Source: Salvelinus alpinus
Lineage: Eukaryota; Chordata; Actinopteri; Salmoniformes; Salmonidae
Length of the DNA stretch: 64,000 bases
NCBI RefSeq assembly: GCF_045679555.1
Contig: NC_092096.1
Coordinates: forward strand, 28,714,364-28,778,363
Reading direction: 5' to 3'
Shown: one piece after another, positions 12,270 through 47,629 of the stretch
Layout of the letters: each line of letters opens with the position of its first letter
Position numbering within the stretch: the stretch's first letter is position 1
Position numbers and translations under genes: made by a program
Notes under the pieces: generated by a model
Told to the model about the DNA's origin: nothing
What the model saw: only the letters and a program-made list of their open reading frames with translations
Databases searched by the model: none

Positions 12270-12276
12270 ATGACTA

Positions 12277-13182
12277 TCGCTATACACCAAGTCACTTGGC
12301 TCTGTCATATCCTCACATGGTCTCTCCTATCATTGCTATGCAGACGACACACAATTAATCTTCTCCTTTCCCCCCTCTGATAACCAGGTGGTGAATCGCA
12401 TCTCTGCATGTCTGGCAGACATATCAGTGTGGATGACGGATCACCACCTCAAGCTGAACCTCGGCAAGACGGAGCTGCTCTTCCTCCCGGGGAAGGACTG
12501 CCCGTTCCATGATCTCGCCATCACGGTTGACAACTCCATTGTGTCCTCCTCCCAGAGTGCTAAGAACCTTGGCGTGATCCTGGACAACACCCTGTCGTTC
12601 TCAACTAACATCAAGGCGGTGACCCGTTCCTGTAGGTTCATGCTCTACAACATTCGCAGAGTACGACCCTGCCTCACGCAGGAAGCGGCGCAGGTCCTAA
12701 TCCAGGCACTTGTCATCTCCCGTCTGGATTACTGCAACTCGCTGTTGGCTGGGCTCCCTGCCTGTGCCATTAAACCCCTACAACTCATCCAGAACGCCGC
12801 AGCCCGTCTGGTGTTCAACTTTCCCAAGTTCTCTCACGTCACCCCGCTCCTCCGCTCTCTCCACTGGCTTCCAGTTGAAGCTCGCATCCGCTACAAGACC
12901 ATGGTGCTTGCCTACGGAGCTGTGAGGGGAACGGCACCTCCGTACCTTCAGGCTCTGATCAGGCCCTACACCCAAACAAGGGCACTGCGTTCATCCACCT
13001 CTGGCCTGCTCGCCTCCCTACCTCTGAGGAAGTACAGTTCCCGCTCAGCCCAGTCAAAACTGTTCGCTGCTCTGGCACCCCAATGGTGGAACAAACTCCC
13101 TCACGACGCCAGGTCAGCGGAGTCAATCACCACCTTCCGGAGACACCTGAAACCCCACCTCTTTAAGGAATACCTAGGATAG
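12277..13182 (+). CDS. C-terminal fragment of L2 LINE ORF2 (reverse transcriptase end)
   Basis: A single frame is open from the truncation point to the TAG at 13180-13182, about 301 codons. It contains the catalytic YADD motif (12337-12348), then the thumb and C-terminal region with NLGVILD, SRLDYCNSLLAGLP, LHWLPVEARI and APQWWNKLP, all typical of fish L2/CR1-type ORF2 proteins. The endonuclease and most of the polymerase are missing, so the product cannot retrotranspose. No host function is implied. A start codon is absent at the truncated 5' end. Confidence 0.88.
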   Translation, partial: SLYTKSLGSVISSHGLSYHCYADDTQLIFSFPPSDNQVVNRISACLADISVWMTDHHLKLNLGKTELLFLPGKDCPFHDLAITVDNSIVSSSQSAKNLGVILDNTLSFSTNIKAVTRSCRFMLYNIRRVRPCLTQEAAQVLIQALVISRLDYCNSLLAGLPACAIKPLQLIQNAAARLVFNFPKFSHVTPLLRSLHWLPVEARIRYKTMVLAYGAVRGTAPPYLQALIRPYTQTRALRSSTSGLLASLPLRKYSSRSAQSKLFAALAPQWWNKLPHDARSAESITTFRRHLKPHLFKEYLG

Positions 13183-13330
13183 GATAAAGTAATCCTTCTA
13201 ACCCCCCCCCCCCCTTAAAAGAGTTAGATGCACTATTGTAAAGTGGTTGTTCCACTGGATATCATAAGGTGAATGCACCAATTTGTAAGTCGCTCTGGAT
13301 AAGAGCGTCTGCTAAATGACTTAAATGTAA
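12277..13330 (+). mobile_element. L2-type non-LTR retrotransposon, 5'-truncated, young
   Basis: The insertion is about 1.05 kb, flanked by the 7-bp direct repeat ATGACTA (12270-12276 and 13331-13337), consistent with a target-site duplication. It holds the 3' end of the reverse-transcriptase ORF and the 3' tail with CTCTGGATAAGAGCGTCTGC followed by AAATGTAAATG units. The C-run at 13201-13214 is in the 3' UTR. The open frame is undamaged, which indicates a recent insertion. Confidence 0.9.
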
Positions 13331-13337
13331 ATGACTA

Positions 13338-27484: not shown

Positions 27485-29046
27485 CAGTCGTGGCCAAAAG
27501 TTTTGAGAATGACACAAATATTAATTTTCACAGTCTGCTGCCTCAGTTTGTATGATGGCAATTTGCATATACTCCAGAATGTTATGAAGAGTGCTCAGAT
27601 GAATTGCAATTAATTGCAAAGTCCCTCTTTGCCATGCAAATAAACTGAATCCCCCCAAAACATTTCCACTGCATTTCAGCCCTGCCACAAAAGGACCAGC
27701 TGACATCATGTCAGTGATTCTCTCGTTAACACAGGTGTGAGTGTTGACGAGTACAAGGCTGGAGATCACTCTGTCATGCAGATTGAGTTTGAATAACAGA
27801 CTGGAAGCTTCAAAAGGAGGGTGGTGCTTGGAATCATTGTTCTTCCTCTGTCAAGCATGGTTACCTGCAAGGAAACACGTGCCGTCATCATTGCTTTGCA
27901 CAAAAAGGGCTTCACAGGCAAGGATATTGCTGCCAGTAAGATTGCACCTAAATCAACCATTTATCGGATCATCAAGAACTTCAAGGAGAGCGGTTCAATT
28001 GTTGTGAAGAAGGCTTCGGGGCGCCCAAGAAAGTCCAGCAAGCGCCAGGACCGTCTCCTAAAGTTGATTCAGCTGCGGGATCGGGGCACCACCAGTACAG
28101 TGCTTGCTCAGGAATGGCAGCAGGCAGGTGTGAGTGCATCTGCACGCACAGTGAGGTGAAGACTTTTGGAGGATGGCCTGGTGTCAAGAAGAGCAGCAAA
28201 GAAGCCACTTCTCTCCAGGAAAAACATCAGCGACAGACATATTCTGCAAAAGGTACAGGGATTGGACTGCTGAGGACTGGGGTAAAGTGATTTTCTCTGA
28301 TGAATCCCCTTTTTATTGTTTGGGGCATCCGGAAAAAAGCTTGTCCAGGGAAGACAAGGTGAGCGCTACCATCAGTCCTGTATCACGCCAACAGTAAAGC
28401 ATCCTGAGACCATTCATGTGTGGGCTTGCTTCTCAGCCAAGGGAGTGGGCTCACTCACAATTGTGCCTAAGAACACAGCCATGAATAAAGAATGGTACCA
28501 ACACATCCTTTGAGAGCAACTTCTCCCAACCATCCAGGAACAGTTTGGTGACGAACAATGCTTTTTCCAGCATGATGGAGCACCTTGCCATAAGGCAAAA
28601 GTGATAATTAAGTGTCTCGGGGAACAAAACATCGATATTTTGGGTCCATGGCCAGGAAACTCCCCAGACCTTAATCCCATTGAGAACTTGTGGTCAATCC
28701 TCAAGAGGCGGGTGGACAAACAAAACCCCACAAATTCTAACAAACTCCAAGCATTGATTATGCAAGAATGGGCTGCCATCAGTCAGGATGTGGCCCAGAA
28801 CTTAATTGACAGCATGCCAGAGCGGATTGCAGAGGTCTTGAAAAAGAAGGGTCAACACGGCAAATATTGACTCTTTGCATCAACTTCATGTAATTGTCAA
28901 TAAAAGCCTTTGACACTTATGAAATGCTTGTAATTGTACTTCCGTATTCCATACTAACATCTGACAAAAATATCTAAAGACACTGAGGCAGCAAACTTTG
29001 TGAAAATTTATATTTGTGTCATTCTCAAAACTTTTGGCCACGACTG
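27485..29046 (+). mobile_element. second Tc1-like transposon, full-length, nested
   Basis: The element is 1562 bp with inverted ends CAGTCGTGGCCAAAAGTTTT and its complement, flanked by TA at 27483-27484 and 29047-29048. The termini differ from the CAGTTGAAGTCGG family, so this is a separate Tc1 lineage. It interrupts the left terminal region of the outer element and is therefore the younger insertion. Confidence 0.92.
27855..28870 (+). pseudogene. transposase of the nested Tc1-like element, inactivated
   Basis: From ATG at 27855 the frame encodes the N-terminal DNA-binding domain (KGFTGKDIAASK, STIYRIIKNFKESG, GRPRKSS) until a TGA at about 28157-28159 in VR*RLLEDG. That TGA replaces an expected CGA arginine. 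Frames then shift around 28240-28400, and another TGA in HIL*EQLLP (about 28511-28513) again fits CGA decay. The C-terminal part from 28601 is open with [13 protein letters not shown], holding the last catalytic acidic residue, and ends TGA at 28868-28870. Confidence 0.88.
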
Positions 29047-29378
29047 TAGTGTTGGTCCCATGTTTCATGAACCGAAAAAATATCCAAGAAATGTTCCATA
29101 CGCACAAAAAGCTAACATCCCTGTTAGTGACCATTTCTCCTTTGCCAAGATAATCCATCCACCTAACAGGTGTGGCATATCAAGAACTGATTAAACAGAA
29201 TGATCATTACACAGCTGCACCTTGTGCCGGGGACAATAAAAAGCCACTCTAAAATGTGCAGTTTTGTCACACAACACAATGCCATAGATGTCTCAAGTTT
29301 TGAAGGAGCGTGCAATTGGCATGCTGACTGCAGGAATGTACACCAGAGCTGTTGCCAGAGAATTTAATGTGCCCCTTT

Positions 29379-32866: not shown

Positions 32867-35800
32867 ATGGAAGCGCCGCCATTTATGAAGTCAGTTTTAC
32901 CTGCGCTAGACTCATTCACACTTGACGCAGATGACACGAGTTTGGCATTACCACCGGAGGATAATACAAAGACTCATTCAACCGACCGGGGTTTTCGTGT
33001 TCAGCAACAAGTGCAGCTCACACTTGCTCGTAAGGGTAAAAAGACAACGTCCAATGGTAAAATAGTAGTTTTTCATTGAGTCTGCACGAATAAAACGAGG
33101 TCTGTAAGATTAGCCTATTGAAATCGGCAAGGGAATTTGTCGACAAGGGGGGGCTGTTTAGACATAGTCTACCAGGAAATACAGGACGGGTCGAAACCAG
33201 ATGCAACCGAATGGACATGCAGGCCTAGTCATTTGTGTCAAATTCTTAGTGACATTGTACTTGTCATGATGTTTGAATATAATCGTTTTCTAACATGCTT
33301 GCAATCTCCTCTAGCCTACTGTATTTGTGGTCCTCTCCATTTACCTTTCCAATAGGAGAGGGCGTGTGTCCAGATGGTAATTAGGGAATTGGTGCGATGG
33401 CATGATCCTTCAGAACACATGTGGTGTATCTTTCAGGTAGTCTTCATCTATCCAGAAAGCCATCAATTATCACCGGTTCCAGAGATGGAACCTTGAATAA
33501 CATGAAGGTAAGGCCTGTCCAATAATACACAACCCACTATCCACAGTCACAGGTGCTTTAGCCTCCCTAAAGTTAACCAGAGAGCCTGAATGTTAGAAAT
33601 AACAGCTACGTGATTCAAATCCGGAGCAAGGGACTTCACCCTGCATGGCAGTCAAGTGCAATGTGTCTGGAGGATATGTGAAGTAAAAAATGTAAAAACA
33701 CTTGAATTCCATATTTAGTGTGTCACTGAGGTGATAAACTTCACAAGAAACAGCAGGAAAATGAGATGGTATCTATTTGCCCCTAAAATAAACTGTAGGC
33801 TGCATTGGTTTTGAATGTACTGCCCATATGGTTTGAATAAAAACAAATTGGATAGTCTCAGGGATGTGCAGCTATTGTAAGCCCCAAGCCCATAGGGCAG
33901 AGAGTGTTAGATACCCATATCTCAAAAATGTGACAGATAAAGCCTTTCCTACTGGCACACTTGACATATTTATCGCCCCTTTGTCTGTTCTACCAAACGC
34001 TGAAATTCTATCATCTCACATAGACAATTTGAATTGAACTGCAGTTTTATTGAATAATATCTTCATGATTCCTAAAGGAAACATTACAGGCTGACTACAC
34101 CACTCGCGTTGCAAAATACATTTAGAAATCTATATTATTCAATTATTACACCACACTGCTCGCGCGCACCAACGAGCGTCTGCGTTGCCAAGAGCTAAAA
34201 TAGAAGTCAGTTCTATTTCTGACGCAGATCGCGCTGCAAGTCCTGCCTCTCCCATCTCCTCATTGGTTTATAGAAGCAGGTACCCACGTGCCATCTCCTC
34301 ATTGGTTATATGAGGCCAGTGGCGGTAATTCACCTAATTTATGAAAGTTGCCAATCGTAATATAAAGTCAAGAGAAGAAAAAGCCTAGAAGGAGGAGGGA
34401 TGACTAGAAACGATTCGGTTGACCGTTTTATGTGTGAATTAATTGTCGGAGTAGAGGACCTTGTGCATTTCAGGTAAAATAACAACTCAATGTTTATATC
34501 CCAGGACAAATTAGCTAGCAACAGCAAGCTAGCTAAATAGGACAAATTAGCTAGCTAGCTAAATTGCCATAAATGTTTAATGCTTTTTGACCTGTCCCCA
34601 AATTAATGTAATTGGTTCAGAGTTTGTTTTGATATTTTAACCTGCGTGTCGTGATCGCGTTTGGTGTGGGGGGACAAAATAAATGTATGCACGATGGCGC
34701 ACGCGCGCAGCCGGTTTGGGTTCCTTGTAAGTTGTGGCTTTAAAACACACAATACAGGATGATACAACAATACAAACAGAACAGTGGTTATTCAGACATC
34801 AGAGAGAGCATTTTGTATGATCTTTTTCCCTAAACCTTTTGTGTTGCTTTGAGTCATCACGACTGTGTCCAATTATATGCAACTGCTTTACAGATGTTTT
34901 AGCATTATTACCAGAAATGTCTATGGTTGATTCAGTTGTAAGCCTTCTGAAACGTGGCAACCACTGCTTTTCACCTTTCCATGTAGACACACTCATCTTT
35001 GGGTCAGATCGGAGGCAGGGACTTCAGCAGCCTGTCGTCTTTGAAGGAGAATAGAAGAAGTCCGTCTAAGAGGGTGGATTTGACCCCAGTCACCAGCCCT
35101 GAGTTACCTCGCTCCCGTCTGGCCTATGGGACACTCCGTTTCGGAACCTACACCCTCCCCGGCCCTAGCCAGCCGCCCATGATGGGAACTTCAGAGGAGC
35201 GGTCTTATGGGACAGACTTGATGCGGCGTTATGCCCATTCAGAAATGGCCCGTAGCACAAGGACACACGCCATAGCTAACGGCGGCAACTACCACTGGAG
35301 CCAGTCCCTCAGACAGACTCGAGGTCCTCAGCCCCTCTCTGCAGACCACTCATTCCTGTGCAGCAGCCCTGCGATTCGCACCAACAACAGCCCCTACCTG
35401 ATGGAGGTTCAAAAGGGGGCGAGGAGACAAACAGGCTACGGGTCATTCAATGCTACCCAGAGAACAGAGGGCCTGGCCTGGCTGGGCCAGGTGGGGAAGG
35501 AGAGCCAGGGGCATGTGGGAGCCAAATGGCCTCCCTCGTACCCAGCCTCACTGGTCAGCATGGAGGTGGACATGGGCCAGATGAGGGCGGCGGCGGAGCC
35601 AGAGATCCAGCAGACAGACGTGAATGAAGTCACCGCGGTGTAAGACGGCTTATGTGTTCTATACAAACCTGAAGTTGATTAGATCTGGCAATTAATTTAG
35701 TTCTCAACATCTCAAATCAAATGTTATGTCACATGCTTCGTAAACAACAGGTGTAGACTAACAGTGAAATGCTTACTTACAGGCCCTTCCCAACAATGCA

Positions 35801-38800
35801 GAGAGAGAGAAAATAGAGAAATAATAGAAAAGTAATAACAAGTAATAATAAATGCACAATGAGTAAGGATAACTTGGCTATATACTCAAGGTACCAGTAC
35901 CGAATTGATTTGCAAGGGTACAAGGTAATTGAAGTAGATATGTACATACTGTATAACTAGGAATAAAGTGACTAGGATAGATAATAAACAGGATAGATTA
36001 TCAACAGCAGCAAAAAGGTTCAATGCAGTCTAGGTAGCTATTTGGTTAACTGTAACTAGCTATTTAGCAGTTTTATGACTTAGGGGTAGAAGCTGGTTCC
36101 AGATTTCGGTGGCTTATCTAGGCTGGCACTAAAGCTATTGTAAAAGAGTCTTCCAGAGAATTATTGGTGGTTCAGTTGCTTATCTGTCGTTTCAGGTCAA
36201 TGATTTACCCAGATTTTGTAATAGGTGTATATAATGAATATAATGGAAAGTGTTGTGAGGATGAGAAATTGGATTAATCAGAATTTGGGATTGATAAAGT
36301 GAGTGAGTGTGTGTGTGTTTGTCAATGACAGGAATTTCCTCTTCAATGCTCTCTCCCATACACAGGAAGCCAGAGAGCAAGGTGCCTGAGCTGACATTGG
36401 AGAGGGCAGTGAACCTGCTGGGCCAAGAGAATGAGGAGATGCAGATCACTGCTGCCAGCTTTATTCAAAACCAATGTTTCAACAGCGCTGACGCTAAGAA
36501 GATGGTGAGCTGGGGCCCATCTCTACTACTGTTGACTTGGCCGGTCAATTAAGGTTAAAGGCTTCCAGGCTGTAGGCCTACAATACAGCTGATGTTGACA
36601 ATACAGTATGTGCCATTTTCAAATAATTGGATTGGTAGGGGTATTTTCCCTTCAATTTATATTGAGATTGTGGGCGATTCGCATGAAAATTCAAGTTGAG
36701 CTCACTCTTCATAGGAACAAGGGTAGATGAAGATCTCTGCCTGTCTGTCCCCAGGTGTTCTACCTCCACGGTATACCCAGGCTGATCAAACTGCTGCAGA
36801 GCGACAGCGAGGAGCTGGAGCGCATAGCGGCGGGGGCGCTCCGAAACGTCGTCTTCGAGAGCAGCGAGAACAAGATGGAGGTGAAGGACAACGAGGGCGT
36901 GGCCCCTACACTGCGTCTGCTCAGGAGAAGTCGCGACATAGAGACCCGGCGGCAGCTCACTGGTTAGTTTGAGCACCTGCTCGTGTAGATCTGAAGGAAA
37001 TCGTCGTAGCACTTTATTAATGACCAGGGCGCGTATTCACAAAGTGCCTCAGAGCAGGAGAGCTGATCTAGGATCAGTTTATCCTTTTAAATCATAATGA
37101 ATGAGGGGGGGCTGATCCTAGATCAGCACTCCTATTCTGAGATGCTTTGTGAATATGTGATTTACATGAACTTACATGGTAAAATGGTAATGACACAGTA
37201 GTAACCTAAGAATGAAACATGTTCCACAGGGCTGTTGTGGAACCTATCCTCCCATGACCTGCTGAAGGAGCATCTCTCCAAAGAGGCCCTGGAGATCCTG
37301 ACCACGTCTGTGCTGGTGCCCTGCTCAGGCCTGTTTGAGGGGGAGAACCCCAAAGATGGCATGCTGGCTGACCCAGACACCTTTTACAACGCCACTGGCT
37401 GCCTCCGGTAGGTCGTCTGGTCTGGACAAAGGCGTTTATTGGCCATTTGTGTGTTTGGCACTGACCTATGTAGTATCTGTGGTCAAGTATTTCTAGGGAT
37501 CCATCTTAGGGCAGCCTGGGATAGACACTAGGCAGTGGGATGCAGAAAGCGGTATAGTAGTTATGTTTGGAATGATCATGAAATAATTTATTGATTGATG
37601 CTAAATGGTGTACAGTGCCTTCAGAAGGTATTCACACTCCTTGACTTTTTCCACTTTATGTTGTGTTACAAAGTGGGATTAAAATGGACGTCTTTAATTT
37701 TTTTATGTGGAAGATAAAAAATATATAATATTACACTATAAAACACTAATAGATTTGAAGTCGGAAGTTTACATTCACTTAGGTTGGAGTTATTAAAACT
37801 CGTTTTTCAATCACTCCACAAATTTCTTGTTAACAAACTATAGTTTTGGCAAGTCGGTTAGGACATCTACTTTGTGCATGACACAAGTATTTTTTCCAAC
37901 AATTGTTTACAGACAGATTATTTCACTTAATTCACTGTATCACAATTCCAGTGGGTCAGAAGTTTGCATACACTAAGTTGACTGTGCCTTTAAACAGCTT
38001 GGAAAATTCCAGAAAATGATGTCATGGCTTTAGAAGCTTCTGATAGGCTAATTGACATAATTTGAGTCAATTGGAGGTGTATCTGTGGATGTATTTCAAG
38101 GCCTACCTTCAAACTCAGTGCCTCTTTGCTTGACATCATGTGGAAAATCTAAAGAAATCAGCCAAGACCTCAGAAAAAAAATTATAGACCCCCACAAGTC
38201 AGGTTCATCCTTGGGTGCGATTTCCAAACGCCTGAAGGTACCACGTTCATCTGTACAAACAATAGTACACAAGTATAAACACCATGGGACCACGCAGCTG
38301 TCATACCGCTCAGGAAGGAGACACATTCTTTGGTGCGAAAAGTGCAAATCAATCCCAGAACAACAGCAAAGGACCTTGTGAAGATGCTGGAAGAAACAGG
38401 TATAACAGTATCTATATCCACACAAAAAAATTCCCTAGTCCTTACAAATGACAAGCATACCCATAAGATGATGCTGCCACCACCATGCTTGAAAATATGA
38501 AGAGAGGTACTCGGAGAGTTTGATTTGCTTTGTATTCAGGACAAAAAGTGAATTTCTTTGCCACATTTTTTGCAGTTTTACTTTAGTGCCCTGAGCGGTT
38601 TCCTTCCTCTCTGGGAACTGAGTTAGGAATGGTGACTGTATCTTTGTAGTGACTGGGTGTATTGACACACCATCCAAAGTATAATTAATAACTTCAACAT
38701 GCTCAAAGTGATATTCAATGTTTTTTTTTACCCATCTACCTCTTCGCCTCTTCGTGAGGCATTGGCAACAAAAAACAACCTTCCTGGTCTTTTTTGTTCA

Positions 38801-41800
38801 ATCTTTAAAATTCTCTGTTCAACTGCAAGACCATACAGATAATTGCATGTGTGGGGTACAGAGAAGGTGTAGTCATTTCAAAAATCATGTTAATCAATAT
38901 TATTGCACACAGTGAGTCGATGCTACTTTATTATGTGACTTAAGCACATTTGTACTCTAAAAGGGTTGAATACTTATTGACACAAGGCATTTCAGCTTTT
39001 CATTTGAATTCCTTTGTAAACACTGCTAAAAACATAAGTCCACTTTAACATTACGGGGTATTGTGTGTAGATCAGTGACAATCTCAATTGAATTAATTTT
39101 AAATTTAGTCTGTAACGCAACAAAATGTGGAAAGAGTGAAGGGGTGTGAATACTTTCTGAAGGCGCTGATTATTATACGGTGACCCAGTCGGTTCATGTG
39201 CAATCATCTCTCACCACAGTGTTACATCTCACAGGGCTTTGTCAAGCATATTATATTTATCTCTGACAGCCTCCTCGCCATGAGTGAGAACTGTGAGGTT
39301 CCTCAAAGGCCATCGTCATCCTGTTACTCCTTTCTACCTGGCAAAACAGGCATGATGACTTCTGCCTAGGCAGCATCACCTCGATGGAACAGCAATGCGC
39401 TGGAAACAATATCCTGCATACCTTGTGTTCCTGTTGAACCGACAGCCATTGGTTTGGCACAGATATACCACATGACAAACACAACATGGTATAACAAGGA
39501 GTGTTTTGCTTTTGCCTAGCAACCGATACAACTGAAAACAGTCAGGGACTAAATTATTAATGGAGCCCTCTCCCTCTTAGTGGCTCTAGTAGAATTGAAA
39601 CCTCTGAATCCATATTGGCTGGTGCTATCAAGCCCTGGCAACCATTGACTTGTGTAACTCTGAGGAATTCCTCAGTCTTTGGCCTGATTTTAAAACGAAA
39701 ACACATAACACTCCAACTCACAGCCATAACCTTGGGTCATCACTAATGTTACTGTATTTGGCTTGACGTTAACAAAAAGGCTGCAGAATTTTTAGGAATA
39801 AATAATTACCATTTGGTCACGTGTATTGAGGCAACTGTCATGTGTTTTTGCTTGACTTCATCTAAAAGGAAGTGGAACAGTTGACTCATTGACAAGTGGT
39901 TGAAATTAAAGTGAAAGATTAACTCATGTTGCTCATTTGCTTACGTTTTCCTTTGTGGTTGAAACACGTTGCTATCTCTCAACACAGAGACATGTTATTA
40001 CAATGACCTATTGTAATGGCTTTATCTGCAGATAACAGAAAACCTTTTTTTTTTAAAAGTACACCAAATATCTCTGCTACAAACATTTGGCTCATCCGGC
40101 AAACAGCTAGGATAGATATTTAGCCAGTCTGGCCAATGTCTAGAATGTAAAGAATGCTTTTGCTGTTGCTGCCTAGTGGCGATAATGACAACCTGTCATT
40201 GTTGTTGTCAGAAACATAAGCTCGGCTGGTCCAGAAGGGAGAAAAGCCATGCGGCAGTGTGAGAACCTTATTGACTCACTGGTATACTACATCCGCGGGA
40301 CCATAGCTGACTACAAGCCCGATGACAAGGTACTGCATGTGAATGACTAAAGTAACATTTACTAAACTTTTGTGCAAAATGTTCACTTGTTTTTATTTCG
40401 TACAAGCATTACTAAACATTTGTAGGTGGAATAAATATTGACACAGGGAAATGAAATAAGACTGTTTTTGTCTATATTTGATCAATTTATGTCTCTCGAA
40501 CAACTTATTAATCACGCCTTTAGTGTTAAATATTGAGAAAACATCATGAACCAGCTCTGTTCTCCAATTTTTATATATTTTTTACAAAAGACATTGCAGA
40601 ATGTTTGATATTAAAATCATAGTCCCCTGAACAGAACCACTTCTCTCCTTCACAGTCCACAGAGAACTGTGTGTGCATCCTACATAACCTCTCCTACCAG
40701 ATGGAGGTGGAACTTCCACAGAAGTACTCCAGCGAGCTCCATGAGTCTCGACTCAACCTGAATCCAAAGACCAAGACCCCCGGCTGTTTCGGTTCTCGCA
40801 GTGCCAAAATCATCCAGGTGGGCTCCCATCACCTCTGTTGTGTTTGTTATCATCGTTGTTGCCCTTTTGTACTTGACATGCACTGTTTATATCTGGTTAT
40901 AAATAAGTTATTACCACTAAAGTAAATTGGCAATGCCTATGTTATGGATAAGCCGCCTTGGTAAGTGGTAAAGCATACATTTTGAACTAACTCTTTAAGC
41001 CCGGTTTTCTTTGACAAATGTAATTGTTAAAAGCCTTATACACATTAATTGAAAATTAATGTGAAACCTGGTATCTGGGAGTTAACTTTGAATTAAAGGG
41101 CCTCCTGTTTTCTGGTTGTTTTGGTCCTATAGCGTCTTGAACCAAAGCGCCCTCTGCTGGAGGAGAAGGGTAGTCCATGTGGAATAGAGTGGCTGTGGAG
41201 CGCCATCACAGTGCGCATGTACCTGTCAATCATGGCCCGCAGCATCCGTCCCTACACCCAGGAGACTGCCATCGGAGCCCTGCAGAACATCACAGCTGGG
41301 AACGGCCTGGTAAGGCTATATCACAGATCTATGATCTTATTTCTATGGGCTATGTACTGTTCTGGGAGTGTGGAATTCCAATCAAACCCATGGGCAAATC
41401 AATAACTACAATACAGCCATCTATTATGTTGTCATGACTTGACTGTATAGTAAGTATTACATTGATGTGACTACTATATTATGCATTACTATATTGACTG
41501 TCAGTTGGTGATGTTGGGCTCATGGCTCTGTATGGGCAGGTATCCCAGGCCATCGCCCACACCATAGTACAGCGGGAGAATGGTTTACTCCAGGCCATGA
41601 AGATGCTCCAGGAAGGAGGGATGGATGTGAAGAAGACTGCTGTGTCCCTGCTATGTAACATCTCACGCTACAGAGAGCTTCACGCTCACATTGGTGAGCT
41701 GTGAATTGACTCATCAACCGCAATGTTTTAGTCCTACATAAGTCCCACAAAGTATTTTCCTTTGGACTTGTAAGTGTATGTAAATGCACAGAAGCATAAA

Positions 41801-42660
41801 AACCTGCCACTGTAGAAAATCAAACAATCTCTCACAAAGCGTTCCATTCTCTCTGTAGTCAATTTGTAAGTCGCTCTGGATAAGAGCGTCTGCTAAATGA
41901 CTTAAATGTAAATGTAGTCAAACAGGTGTTGCCACAGCTGGTGGTCATGTTACCCAACTCGGACACGAGCACAGACCTGCCTACAGAGGTGACTGTGTCC
42001 CTGTGCCACATCCTCATCAACCTGAGCCAGGATGAAACGCAGCACGTCAGGGCCATCGTCAACCACGGGGCGCTGCCCAAGATCATCAACATCAGCGCAA
42101 AGGACAACGGGTCAGTGGGTAGCTTCTGAAGACCATGGCTGCGTTCCAGGCTGACTACATTGCCTGGATTTAACATGTCAACTAACCACATCATGATATA
42201 CTGCACGTAGCAATCTGATGCCCAACTGCACAGTCGATGTGGCACTGTTGGTTGATGCTATGCAAAGACTGTAGATGGCCTTAAAATGCACTGTATTATT
42301 CCTGAACATTGTGAGTTGGATTGGAGGGAATTTATTTGAATCTGTTTAACCTCTTCCCTTGCTTTATACTGTTCCTTTTATGTCCAATGACAGTAACCTT
42401 GTGTCCCTTTAGGTTTGGTCCCACCAGGGCTGGCCAGGCAGCCTGCATCCTACTACACAGTATGTGGAGCCACTCAGAGCTCCACAGGGCCTATAGGAAG
42501 GTAAGGCCCCTACACAGTATAACCTCAAAGGATAAGAAACATTTGGTGTGGTGACAATAGTTTTTAATTAATCTGTGTTGCTTTTCCTCTCATCATTTGG
42601 TAGGCTGGATATAGGAAAGCAGACTTCGTCAACAGCAGGACATCAAAGGCTGTACATTAA
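32867..42660 (+). CDS. pkp2: plakophilin-2, complete, 13 exons
   Basis: Exons: 32867-33056, 33437-33507, 34987-35639, 36366-36504, 36755-36962, 37230-37407, 40212-40329, 40656-40817, 41133-41309, 41540-41693, 41918-42110, 42413-42500 and 42604-42660. All have GT-AG borders and the phases are consistent, giving 795 residues. Plakophilin-2 is the desmosomal armadillo protein that links cadherins to desmoplakin, important in heart. The N-terminal head has the conserved [14 protein letters not shown] segment. The armadillo region starts near residue 310 ([11 protein letters not shown]) and includes [25 protein letters not shown] and [14 protein letters not shown]. The C-terminus is [12 protein letters not shown], a few residues shorter than human. 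The ATG has a good context (A at -3, G at +4). An L2 insertion has duplicated the exon 11 acceptor, so splicing there may be compromised. Confidence 0.93.
34085..34725 (+). repeat. abundant salmonid interspersed repeat in pkp2 intron 2
   Basis: I recognise the block around AATTTATGAAAGTTGCCAAT, ACGATTCGGTTGACCG, repeated GACAAATTAGCTAGC and GATGGCGCACGCGCGCAGCC as a repeat seen very often in salmonid genomes. It has CpG-rich ends and no coding capacity. The family name and exact borders are uncertain. Confidence 0.5.
35712..36180 (-). mobile_element. antisense LINE 3' fragment in pkp2 intron 3
   Basis: Reading on the minus strand gives the tail seen at 63.4-63.57 kb: TGCATTGTTGGGAAGGGCC, GTAAGTAAGCATTTCACTGT, TAGTCTACACCTGTTG, CGAAGCATGTGACATAAC. 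The 5' side continues into sequence like that at 48.0-48.3 kb (GATAGATAATAAACAG; TTAGGGGTAGAAGCTG). Confidence 0.75.
37613..39168 (+). mobile_element. Tc1-like element with CAGTGCCTTCAGAAGG ends, partly replaced
   Basis: The left end CAGTGCCTTCAGAAGGTATT is the inverse of the right end AATACTTTCTGAAGGCGCTG. The right half at 38435-39168 is this family, while 37755-38430 is a foreign Tc1 fragment. The expected TA on the right is now AT. It lies in pkp2 intron 6. Confidence 0.75.
37755..38430 (+). mobile_element. 5' half of a CAGTTGAAGTCGG-type Tc1 inside another Tc1-like element
   Basis: It runs from a mutated left terminus (GATTTGAAGTCGGAAGTTTA) through the first third of the transposase gene ([20 protein letters not shown]) and stops near 38430 after GATGCTGGAAGAAACAGG. 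No right terminus of this family is present. The coding part has indels and a shift near 38320. Confidence 0.85.
39169..40211 (+). other. pkp2 intron 6, remainder
   Basis: No exon or obvious mobile element is seen. The region ends in the exon 7 acceptor TTGTTGTCAG. Confidence 0.6.
41854..41921 (+). mobile_element. L2 LINE tail fragment inserted at the pkp2 exon 11 acceptor
   Basis: The segment CAATTTGTAAGTCGCTCTGG through AATGACTTAAATGTAAATGTA matches the L2 3' tail at 13.28-13.33 kb. It is flanked by the 9-bp direct repeat TGTAGTCAA (41854-41862 and 41913-41921). Exact borders are ambiguous because L2 itself starts with CAA and ends with ATGTA here. The duplication places an AG|TC acceptor on each side: AG at 41857-41858 after a strong pyrimidine tract, and AG at 41916-41917 after an A/T-rich tract. 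Confidence 0.88.
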
Positions 42661-44308: not shown

Positions 44309-44545
44309 ACGCCTACACGGGCGCCCGGACGGGATGAATCGAACCCCTCAATGTTCCGGCATAGCGGACACGTCTGGGATTTCCGAGATTACCCACGACC
44401 CAACCCAAACAGGAAGTGTAAACACTTCTCACGTAACAGCAGCGCATGTGATAGCCCTTCTCTTCGACTCCTCGGCATTCACCACTTGGGACTCTGATAC
44501 TGTTTTGCTCAGTTGGTTGGTGTGTGCACCAGGATAGTCGAGGCC

Positions 44546-47500
44546 ATGGACTCGATCAGTTGTTCGATCTGCCTGGATCTACTGAAGGATCCAGTGACTA
44601 TTCCCTGTGGACACAGCTACTGTAAAGGCTGTATCAAGGGATATTGGAGTCTTGATGACCAAAAGGGAATTCACAGCTGCCCCCAGTGCCGACAAACCTT
44701 CACCCCAAGACCTGCTCTGAACAGAAACATTCTGCTGGCTGAGTTGGTAGAGAAATTGAAGACAGATTTCAAAACGGTTCCCTCTGCTTCTTGTTTCTTT
44801 GGACCTGAAGATGTGAAGTATGATCGTGATGACTCAGCCGCAGCAGCAGAGAGGAAGGAGAAACAGGTAGGCCTAAGGATCTGGAACATTATACTGCCAT
44901 CTATAATGTATTATATTTAGAGATCAGCTTCATTATTGCTGACTGTTTTGCCAGAAACTGGAAGAGCAGGAAATTCCAGCAAACTCCAAAGTTGAGCTGT
45001 TCCAGTGACACACACTCTGGGTTCAGTATCACATAATCCACAATTAGGTTCTTATTTGTAAATTCTCTATTCTGCTTCCAAATTGACTGATGATAGAGTC
45101 AAAAACCAACTCTGTTAGACAAAATAGGCTGTCACAACAAAAACACTTTAAAACAAACAAAGGATGGAGTAGATTACAGTAAACAGCAGGATGGGCCAGA
45201 ACATCCAGACCGAATCCTCAAAAGTCAAAGGTCACTCATTTACATACACTGCAGAGGCATGAACTCTGAACTATTGTAACCTTTTTGTCTTGAAGGCACT
45301 CATTTATCATTTAATTTAGTCTAACTGATTTGTTTAGCATAATCATGTTTTTGCCATATGACAAGTGTAGTTCAATAACTATTTCCCCACTCAAAAACAT
45401 AACTTGGTCGATTATGAAAACTGTTGTCATTTTGGTAGTCATTTGAAAATGTTATTCTCTACAGGGGCAGCTGAGGGAGAAACGGCAGCATGTCGGGCTG
45501 ACAATCTGTGTGAGAGAGAAGGAGATGCAGGACATAAGACAGGCGTTGATGTCCCTTTCAGTGAGTATTTATTAACCATTTAGAGTATGTACATTTATTT
45601 TGCAAAAGGTTGAGTACTATTTCTAAACTAAAACCAGGGAGGAGCCTAATAGCACTGGGACACACTATAGGGAACAGATCGGTTGTCTGGGGTCTAGGCA
45701 TAGAGAATGATAGAGGCCTCTAGTGGCCAAAAGGCCATATTAGCATGTAGAGGGCTTCTACCATTTTAATTTAGTCATCTGGGTGGGACTTCAAACTTCA
45801 TTGGCTGATCCCTCCTGGTGACCTTGTTGGAGTCATGTCCAACCGGGTCATCAGGAGGGATCAGCCAATTATGAGGAAGAAAATGTACTATGTCAAAATG
45901 GAGACCGCCTCAATTGCGCTGGCCATGCTGTCACAGATGCTATAATGACACAATGCAAAGAGGAGTTATCTATCTATGGGTCTAGGTGAGTGCAGAGTGA
46001 ATGTGCTGGTTAAAATGGCCCCCCTCCCTTCTCTCTTCTTCTCTCGTAACAGCTTTCAGCACAGGCAGCAGTGGAGCACTGTGAGCTGGTCTTTGCTGAG
46101 CTGATCCGCTCCATTGAGAGAAGGCGCTGGGAGGTGAAGGAGCTGATCAGCACCCACCAGAGGGCGTCAGTAAGCCAGACTGAAGGACTCCTGGTGCGAA
46201 TGGAGCAGGAGATAGCTGAGCTGAAGAGGAGAGACAAGGAGCTGGAGCAGCTCGCACAAACAGAGGATAACATTAATTTCCTCAAGGTGACATCACTCTT
46301 TCTATCCACAGTGGCAGGGTGGTGTTCAGAGCTAGGCACGAAACTACCTGAGCTTGTTCAATAAGAATGTTTATTTTTGTTTCATAATATGTTCCCTGTT
46401 TGTGCCCATCGAACATGACCCAGGATTCCTTACTACTACACAACATATAACCTCTGAGCTCCAGAATTCTGCATATTTTCTTATTGTCTATTCTTCCTCC
46501 CTCTCTCTCTCTCGCTCGCTGTAGACATTCCAGTCTCTTTGTGTGGCTCCTGGATCTGAGCTCTTACCCTATATCACTGCCAACCAACACTTCTCCTTTG
46601 AGGAAGTGAAGAGCTCCATCTCTGGAATGATGGAGCGACTGGAGGATGTATTGAAGGAGGAAATGGTCCAGATACCTGGAAAAGGTAAGTGTTACAGATA
46701 TAGTGAAGATAACCAAATATTTTTACTTTCTGTTAAATGCGTTGATTATAAATGAATACATCCATTTGTCTGCATATATACAATATAGTAACGGCTGTCT
46801 CCGAAGTCTATGTCCTCAGCCCAAGACCAGAATGTGAGTAATACACACACACACACACAATGAGTGAATATTTCATCTTGGTTTAATTTCGTATATATTT
46901 GTATTGAATGCTTCTTAATTAAACATGGATTACTCAATGTATCTCCCTACTCTATATAGTAATGGCTGCTGCTGAAGTACATTTTCATCATGAGCCCAAG
47001 ACCAGAGTGGAGTTCTTGGAGAGTAAGTAATACCGTCACACACACACACACACACACAGACCTTATCACGAATGCATATTTCACCTTCATTAAATTTTTT
47101 CACTTTCTTAGACTACTGCCATCTCACGTTGGATCCCAACTCGGCATATCAACACCTGCGTCTGTCTGAGTGCAATAGAGAAGTGTCATGGAGTGACAAG
47201 GCTCTGTCTTATTCTGACCATCCAGACAGATTCACAGACCACTACCAGGTGTTGTGTAAAGAGGATCTGTCTGGAACCCACTACTGTGAGGTGGATAGGA
47301 GGGGGGAATGTGAGGTAGCCATCACATACAGAAGCATCAGCAGGAAAGGCGGATTGGAATGTTGCTTTGGTTCCAATGATCAGTCCTGGAGTTTGGTGTG
47401 TCGCAACTCGAGTTGTTCCTATTGGCACAATAAGAATAGGACTGATATCCCTGTCCCCTGCTCCACCAGAGTAGGAGTGTATCTGGACAGCAGGGCAGGG

Positions 47501-47629
47501 ACTCTGGCCTTCTACAGCGTCTCGGATACAATGACCCTCCTCCACAGAGTCCAGACCACATTCACTGATGACCTCTGTGCTGGGTTTTGGGTTGGTCCTG
47601 GTTGTGGATCATCTGTGGCTCTGTGTTGA
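44546..47629 (+). CDS. RING/coiled-coil/PRY-SPRY protein (fish TRIM family, B-box missing)
   Basis: Exons: 44546-44866, 45465-45560, 46053-46286, 46525-46684, 46789-46833, 46960-47022 and 47112-47629. Phases agree, giving 478 residues. The N-terminal C3HC4 RING has C6, C9, C21, H23, C26, C29, C45 and C48, the signature of a ubiquitin E3 ligase. Residues about 95-215 form a coiled coil (EIAELKRRDKELEQLA). The PRY-SPRY domain covers about 307-478 (LTLDPNSAYQHLRLSE, FGSNDQSWSLVC, RVGVYLDSRAGTLAFYS). Related fish TRIMs act in antiviral and inflammatory signalling. No B-box cysteines or histidines exist between the RING and the SAAAAERKEKQ segment, where relatives have one. The 45-nt exon 5 looks like a degenerate duplicate of exon 6 and may be skipped without a frame change. 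Confidence 0.85.
46789..47022 (+). repeat. tandem duplicated mini-exon of the TRIM-like gene
   Basis: Exon 5 (46789-46833) and exon 6 (46960-47022) both follow TATATAG, both begin TAA(C/T)GGCTG, and both contain AGCCCAAGACCAGA. Their introns start alike (GTGAGTAATAC / GTAAGTAATAC) and continue into CA runs and then AATATTTCA- and CATATTTCA-type sequence. The unit is about 170 bp. Exon 5 has lost four bases relative to exon 6 and ends earlier at its own GTGAGT donor. Confidence 0.7.

Follow-up and report, generated by a model that had tools for sequence, protein, structure and literature searches.

Introners are transposons that make introns. Such mobile elements bring splice signals with them (PMC9860276). 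In merle PMEL, a SINE stands at the intron 10/exon 11 boundary; its target repeat is 15 bp long, and a cryptic acceptor that is in frame gives an addition of 52 residues (PMC7349775). For PKP2 itself, a report on mice with the IVS10-1G>C change describes use of an upstream site, an addition of 54 bp, low protein and heart disease (PMC11357983), and a further report links truncating PKP2 variants to cardiomyopathy in people (PMC10400759). The canine merle SINE is the closest precedent that we found for the pkp2 locus described here.

The window, which is the whole stretch of 64,000 nucleotides of Salvelinus alpinus DNA that was analysed, contains a pkp2 gene that looks complete by its sequence (Table 1). 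The predicted protein of 795 residues, obtained from the ancestral exon 10-11 join, has Arm repeats (Pfam PF00514), and a PDB search with it finds both plakophilin 1 (1xm9) and plakophilin 2 (3tt9). Over the same stretch of the ARM domain, identity is 128 of 226 columns with PKP2 (3tt9) versus 104 of 223 with PKP1 (1xm9). On this comparison with PKP1 and PKP2, we assign the gene to pkp2, its ARM domain being nearer PKP2 than PKP1. The end of exon 10 in phase 1, at CACATTG, which a preliminary description had reported, is borne out by the exon model. Exon 2 was located by a scan for phase 1-to-0 exons and matches at 71 of 71 positions in a second pkp2 copy on another contig, C37. The AG and GT borders are intact at the other pkp2 exons, and skipping of exon 11 (193 nt) would shift the frame. 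A pseudogene with other damage was considered and rejected; the 13 modelled exons have no stop or frameshift.

Table 1. Positions of the features discussed, counted from the first base of the window.
Feature	Positions	Strand	Remarks
pkp2 coding span	32867-42660	+	13 coding exons; plakophilin PDB matches and exons aligned in C37 copy
pkp2 exons 1-5	32867-33056, 33437-33507, 34987-35639, 36366-36504, 36755-36962	+	
pkp2 exons 6-10	37230-37407, 40212-40329, 40656-40817, 41133-41309, 41540-41693	+	
pkp2 exons 11-13	41918-42110, 42413-42500, 42604-42660	+	
pkp2 exon 10	41540-41693	+	phase 1 end, CACATTG/gtgagc
pkp2 exon 11 proper	41918-42110	+	193 nt, 99.5% identity with C37 copy
Candidate branch point CTCAC (A at 41834)	41831-41835	+	motif match only
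Pyrimidine-rich tract of old acceptor	41840-41856	+	retained by AG1
AG1, upstream acceptor copy	41857-41858	+	splice at 41859 gives I-V-N-L-stop, 686 residues
TAA stop after AG1 splicing	41867-41869	+	
AG2	41869-41870	+	stop after 691 residues
AG3, in-frame cryptic acceptor inside L2 tail	41883-41884	+	11 L2-encoded residues added, 806 in total
AG4	41885-41886	+	stop after 687 residues
AG5, downstream acceptor copy	41916-41917	+	splice at 41918 gives ancestral join, I-V-K-Q-V-L-P, 795 residues
AG6, old exonic AG	41924-41925	+	frameshift, stop after 719 residues
L2 3' tail in pkp2	41860-41914	+	55/55 identity with 13279-13333; absent from C37 copy
Predicted hairpin	41857-41902	+	AG1-AG4 in stems, AG5 outside; -17.2 kcal/mol at 37 C for 41855-41904
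L2-type LINE 3' part	12274-13333	+	open frame 12274-13182 (302 codons), tail 13279-13333

At the intron 10/exon 11 boundary TGTAGTCAA is present twice, at 41854-41862 and 41913-41921, which are 59 nt apart, and the duplication around a 59-nt insertion is thus found just as it had been described. Removal of these 59 nt in any of ten registers (start 41854 to 41863) gives an identical empty site. Specifically, the L2 identity runs from CAA (41860) to ATG (41914) and overlaps the target repeat at both ends; because the match starts and ends inside the repeat copies, there are ten registers and the target-site duplication is anywhere from 4 nt (TAGT) to 9 nt (TGTAGTCAA) depending on the register. 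The 32-nt core of the L2 tail occurs 2 times in the window versus 0 times in 100 shuffles, and this shuffle test, along with the empty site in the C37 copy, indicates that the match is not due to chance. The earlier assignment of the insert to an L2 tail also stands on its identity with the LINE tail and on that empty site. The absence of differences in 55 sites places the divergence of the two tails at about 5% or less (95% bound), and their identity is a weak sign that the insertion is young. The LINE, which we take to belong to the L2 clade, has a tail identical to the pkp2 insertion and is possibly a member of a recently active family. The inserted tail may instead derive from a SINE that shares the same tail rather than from a LINE. 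A literature search that used sequence words of the tail found no paper. The acceptor AG stands on both sides of the insert, as AG1 and AG5. Overall, these alignments show that a strongly 5'-truncated L2 retroposon, apparently the last 55 nt or so, duplicated the acceptor by way of its target repeat.

The genome (2.37 Gb, 928 contigs) contains the window copy of pkp2 on C11 and the second copy on C37. A search with 41500-42120, with 40 of 761 candidates scored, yielded one further pkp2 locus, on the minus strand at C37:16983258-16983818, which matches the query at positions 1-363 with 94% and at 414-621 with 100% identity, the 50 bases between being missing; the other matches among these 40 are short (about 60-85 nt) and lie over the L2 tail. 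A protein search with 490 residues, in which 87 of 127 candidates were scored with 62 matches, gave exon-by-exon matches of at least 73% identity on C11 and C37 only, and the remaining loci scored are at 50% identity or less. The 13 pkp2 exons align in the C37 copy at 91-100% identity within a 30 kb region, and its frame is open over 793 residues. Two further features of the C37 copy are a 6-nt deletion in exon 8, by which the residues ME are lost, and, in the exon 4 acceptor (acaaag), an A in place of C at position -3, which lowers the acceptor's score from 4.61 to -0.49. No paper on salmon pkp2 paralogues was among the literature matches listed.

The C37 copy lacks the insertion and reads TTTGTAG followed by TCAAACAG, which we infer to be the ancestral acceptor. 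This acceptor, with CTCTCACGAAGCGTTCCACTTTCTTTGTAG before and TCAAACAGTTG after the splice, has 5 substitutions in the 50 bases compared relative to the window sequence minus its 59 nt. The empty site therefore indicates that the insertion is real and that it is on the C11 copy, and the simplest reading is that it postdates the parting of the two copies. The start of exon 11 in this related locus, where a different start was looked for, is identical to the one that the preliminary description had proposed as ancestral. The two copies are part of a colinear block that joins window positions 24018-51710 with C37:16972001-17002000 (minus), reaches the limit of the compared C37 stretch, includes pkp2 and the adjoining RING gene and exhibits 83-97% identity in pieces of at least 200 nt, with gaps of hundreds of bases in one or the other copy of the block. 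Such a block is as expected for a whole-genome-duplication pair, which would here be the salmonid duplication. Note that the RING finger gene (Pfam) at 44498-47629, directly downstream of pkp2 and presumably TRIM-like, has a RING region that is 96% identical in the C37 block. A Tc1-like DNA transposon at 27797-28870, broken over frames and with a last piece of 118 residues that matches PF13358 (DDE_3), falls in 27488-29048, where there is no plus-strand match longer than 80 nt in the C37 block.

When the coding sequences of the two copies are compared, the dN/dS ratio is 0.29 for the whole and 0.14 for the ARM part. The ARM part has 9 amino-acid events between the copies, 5 of which were polarised by eye against 1xm9/3tt9 (2 on the window copy, 3 on C37) and 4 of which were not. 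The window copy thus has no visible faster decay, as would be the case if the insertion were young, but equally if this copy were still functional. We considered and dropped gene conversion of the 3' end; synonymous changes are 1 in 75.8 sites in exons 11-13 versus 18 in 264.8 sites in exons 4-10 (Fisher p 0.087), and the introns in that part diverge as they do in the rest.

In addition to the AG kept upstream at 41857-58, the insertion adds AGs at 41869-70, 41883-84, 41885-86 and 41916-17. Translation reproduces exactly the V-N-L-stop that had been described for the upstream AG, with its TAA and 686 residues, and gives 795 residues through V-K-Q-V-L-P for the downstream AG, which had been said to restore the frame. 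The preliminary description treated the choice as one between these two acceptors only. This part did not hold, as the choice is not binary because AG3 is also in frame and would provide a third outcome with 11 added residues. Judged by reading frame, acceptor choice in the C11 copy is at least three-way. The observation made in the preliminary description is therefore confirmed and its interpretation partly supported.

We compared the strength of the acceptors with two matrices, one for vertebrates and the other built from the ten other pkp2 acceptors. With the vertebrate matrix, which is not fitted to fish, AG1 scores 3.28 bits, AG3 -5.67 and AG5 -9.78 relative to a range of 0.05 to 6.94 for the ten other pkp2 acceptors, and among 4067 plus-strand AGs AG1 is at the 97th and AG5 at the 18.5th percentile. 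With the ten-acceptor matrix the scores are 3.24 for AG1, -0.93 for AG6, -4.45 for AG5 and -7.80 for AG3; the ten acceptors themselves, scored leave-one-out, range from -2.04 to 2.53, a range of real sites within which AG6 falls. The acceptor of the C37 copy scores 2.95. Thus AG1 scores like the other pkp2 acceptors, and AG5 and AG3 do not. The 20 bases before AG1 contain 13 pyrimidines and those before AG5 contain 7, in agreement, along with both AG5 scores, with the weak downstream context claimed earlier. A poor tract alone cannot rule out a site, because pyrimidines number 8 of 20 at the exon 6 acceptor and 10 of 20 at that of exon 10. Regarding the branch point, CTCAC is a full match to yUnAy located 24 nt before AG1, 50 nt before AG3 and 83 nt before AG5, and in the C37 copy it again precedes the AG by 24 nt. 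The C37 stretch alone has another full match, CTGAC at 47 nt, and weaker branch-point-like motifs that agree at 3 of 4 consensus positions are inside the L2 tail, 12-21 nt before AG5.

The explanation toward which we lean is that AG1 is mostly used, that the message decays and that a weak or null copy is tolerated thanks to the open C37 copy. Specifically, the L2 tail entered one pkp2 copy at its intron 10/exon 11 boundary after the copies parted, and the spliceosome would most likely pick AG1, which still has the old branch point and pyrimidine tract in front of it and comes first among the well-placed AGs, the AG at 41838-39 being too close to the branch point. Splicing at AG1 leads to a stop with 241 nt of exon 11 still to follow, and nonsense-mediated decay is therefore expected. 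The AG1 message would thus most likely be degraded or, alternatively, would code for a 686-residue protein whose ARM domain lacks its last part. AG5 or AG3 may be the joining site in a minority of messages. The open C37 copy would cover the need for the protein, leaving the C11 copy free to be weak or null.

Use of AG1 would be less dominant if the predicted hairpin at 41857-41902 hid AG1-AG4, brought AG5, otherwise 83 nt away from the branch point, to a distance of about 37 nt and left the old tract to recruit U2AF, so that AG5 would be used enough for a working copy; we consider this unlikely, though it is the strongest of the rivals. In the outer stem of the hairpin, AGTCA at the target junction is base-paired to the L2-tail sequence TGACT. 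The segment 41859-41917 folds at -12.9 kcal/mol (z -2.18, with 8 of 200 shuffles as good), and at 37 C the G is unpaired with a probability of 0.00-0.02 for AG1-AG4 versus 0.64-0.69 for AG5 in three contexts of up to 161 nt. The branch-point-like motifs in the L2 tail and the lack of an excess of changes on the window copy also favour AG5, as does a precedent from yeasts, where folding is reported to shorten the distance from branch point to acceptor (PMC9508853). However, the controls weaken this reading. At intact pkp2 acceptors, 6 of 11 have the G of their AG unpaired at 0.14 or less at 37 C, making folding a poor predictor here, and when the L2 tail is placed at the 11 intact acceptors the upstream AG is hidden (at most 0.05) in 4 and the downstream AG open (at least 0.6) in 1. 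Shuffled inserts hide AG1 too in 62 of 300 cases, and 31 of the 300 also leave AG5 open. The hairpin has a probability of 0.64-0.68 in a 261-nt context at 37 C but of 0.13 or less in 361- and 417-nt contexts, where AG5 is paired too, and the 20 bases before AG5 include just 7 pyrimidines. Given these controls, a hairpin that hides AG1-AG4 and favours AG5 is no more than possible. An inverted repeat between 41851-41861 and 41978-41988 (10 of 11 nt, 91%) joins the acceptor region with exon 11 and could be one competing pairing in the pre-mRNA. In the cold the isolated stem is more stable, at -29.8 kcal/mol (10 C) versus -17.2 kcal/mol (37 C), and at 10 C the G of AG5 is unpaired at 0.34, 0.22 and 0.06 in contexts of 131, 161 and 261 nt. 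As cold also pairs AG5 in contexts of at least 131 nt, a temperature effect could run either way in these models.

Nothing would follow for the species if the insertion were an assembly error, or an allele that is rare or restricted to the animal sequenced. One assembly was examined, which leaves room for this reading, but retroposition rather than misassembly would be expected to leave an L2 tail flanked on both sides by a target repeat, and the left junction of the insertion occurs once in the genome; we regard it as improbable. Exonization through AG3, by which 11 residues would be added in frame at the exon 10/11 join in the ARM domain, has an open frame in phase and two in-frame precedents (52 residues in merle PMEL, PMC7349775; 54 bp in mouse PKP2, PMC11357983), but with scores of -5.67 and -7.80, an A at -3 and a place within the predicted hairpin stem it seems very improbable. 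L2 elements carry a 3'-end hairpin for their own copying. One could imagine this hairpin as an RNA switch that when folded hides AG1 and brings AG5 near, and when unfolded leads to AG1 and destruction of the message, which in a cold-blooded animal could make C11 pkp2 output dependent on temperature; we give this the least credence of all, the more so as AG5 is predicted to pair in the cold in longer contexts.

This locus would show in what way a duplicated genome can tolerate a retroposon insertion in a cardiomyopathy-linked gene. The two nearly identical copies, one with an intact acceptor and the other with acceptors doubled 59 nt apart, provide an internal control for RNA-seq, and the pair could reveal rules of acceptor choice, namely the roles of the first AG, the pyrimidine tract, RNA folding and distance.

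There are several likenesses to and differences from the known systems. Introners make new introns, whereas in pkp2 an existing acceptor is doubled and no new intron is made. The PKP2 IVS10-1G>C change differs in being a point mutation rather than an insertion and, going by its coordinates, we take the human change to fall in the intron preceding fish intron 10. The likeness is that in the same gene, in human and mouse, the normal acceptor is lost and an alternative acceptor is used (c.2146-1G>C; PMC11357983). The likeness to merle PMEL extends to a retroposon at an acceptor with a target-site duplication and to competition of the original with a cryptic in-insert acceptor, with in-frame exonization possible (PMC7349775). 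The merle insert is a reverse-oriented SINE of tRNA origin that has a poly(T) tract, in contrast to the 55-nt sense L2 tail without a pyrimidine tract in pkp2, and unlike in merle the stronger duplicate AG of pkp2 is the upstream one, from which splicing runs into a stop. By analogy, then, what happened to the C11 pkp2 copy is an event like the canine merle SINE insertion; it makes a good natural experiment but is not new in kind. What is particular to it is that the stronger of the duplicate AGs is the poisonous one and that an undisturbed sister gene is present in the same genome as a control.
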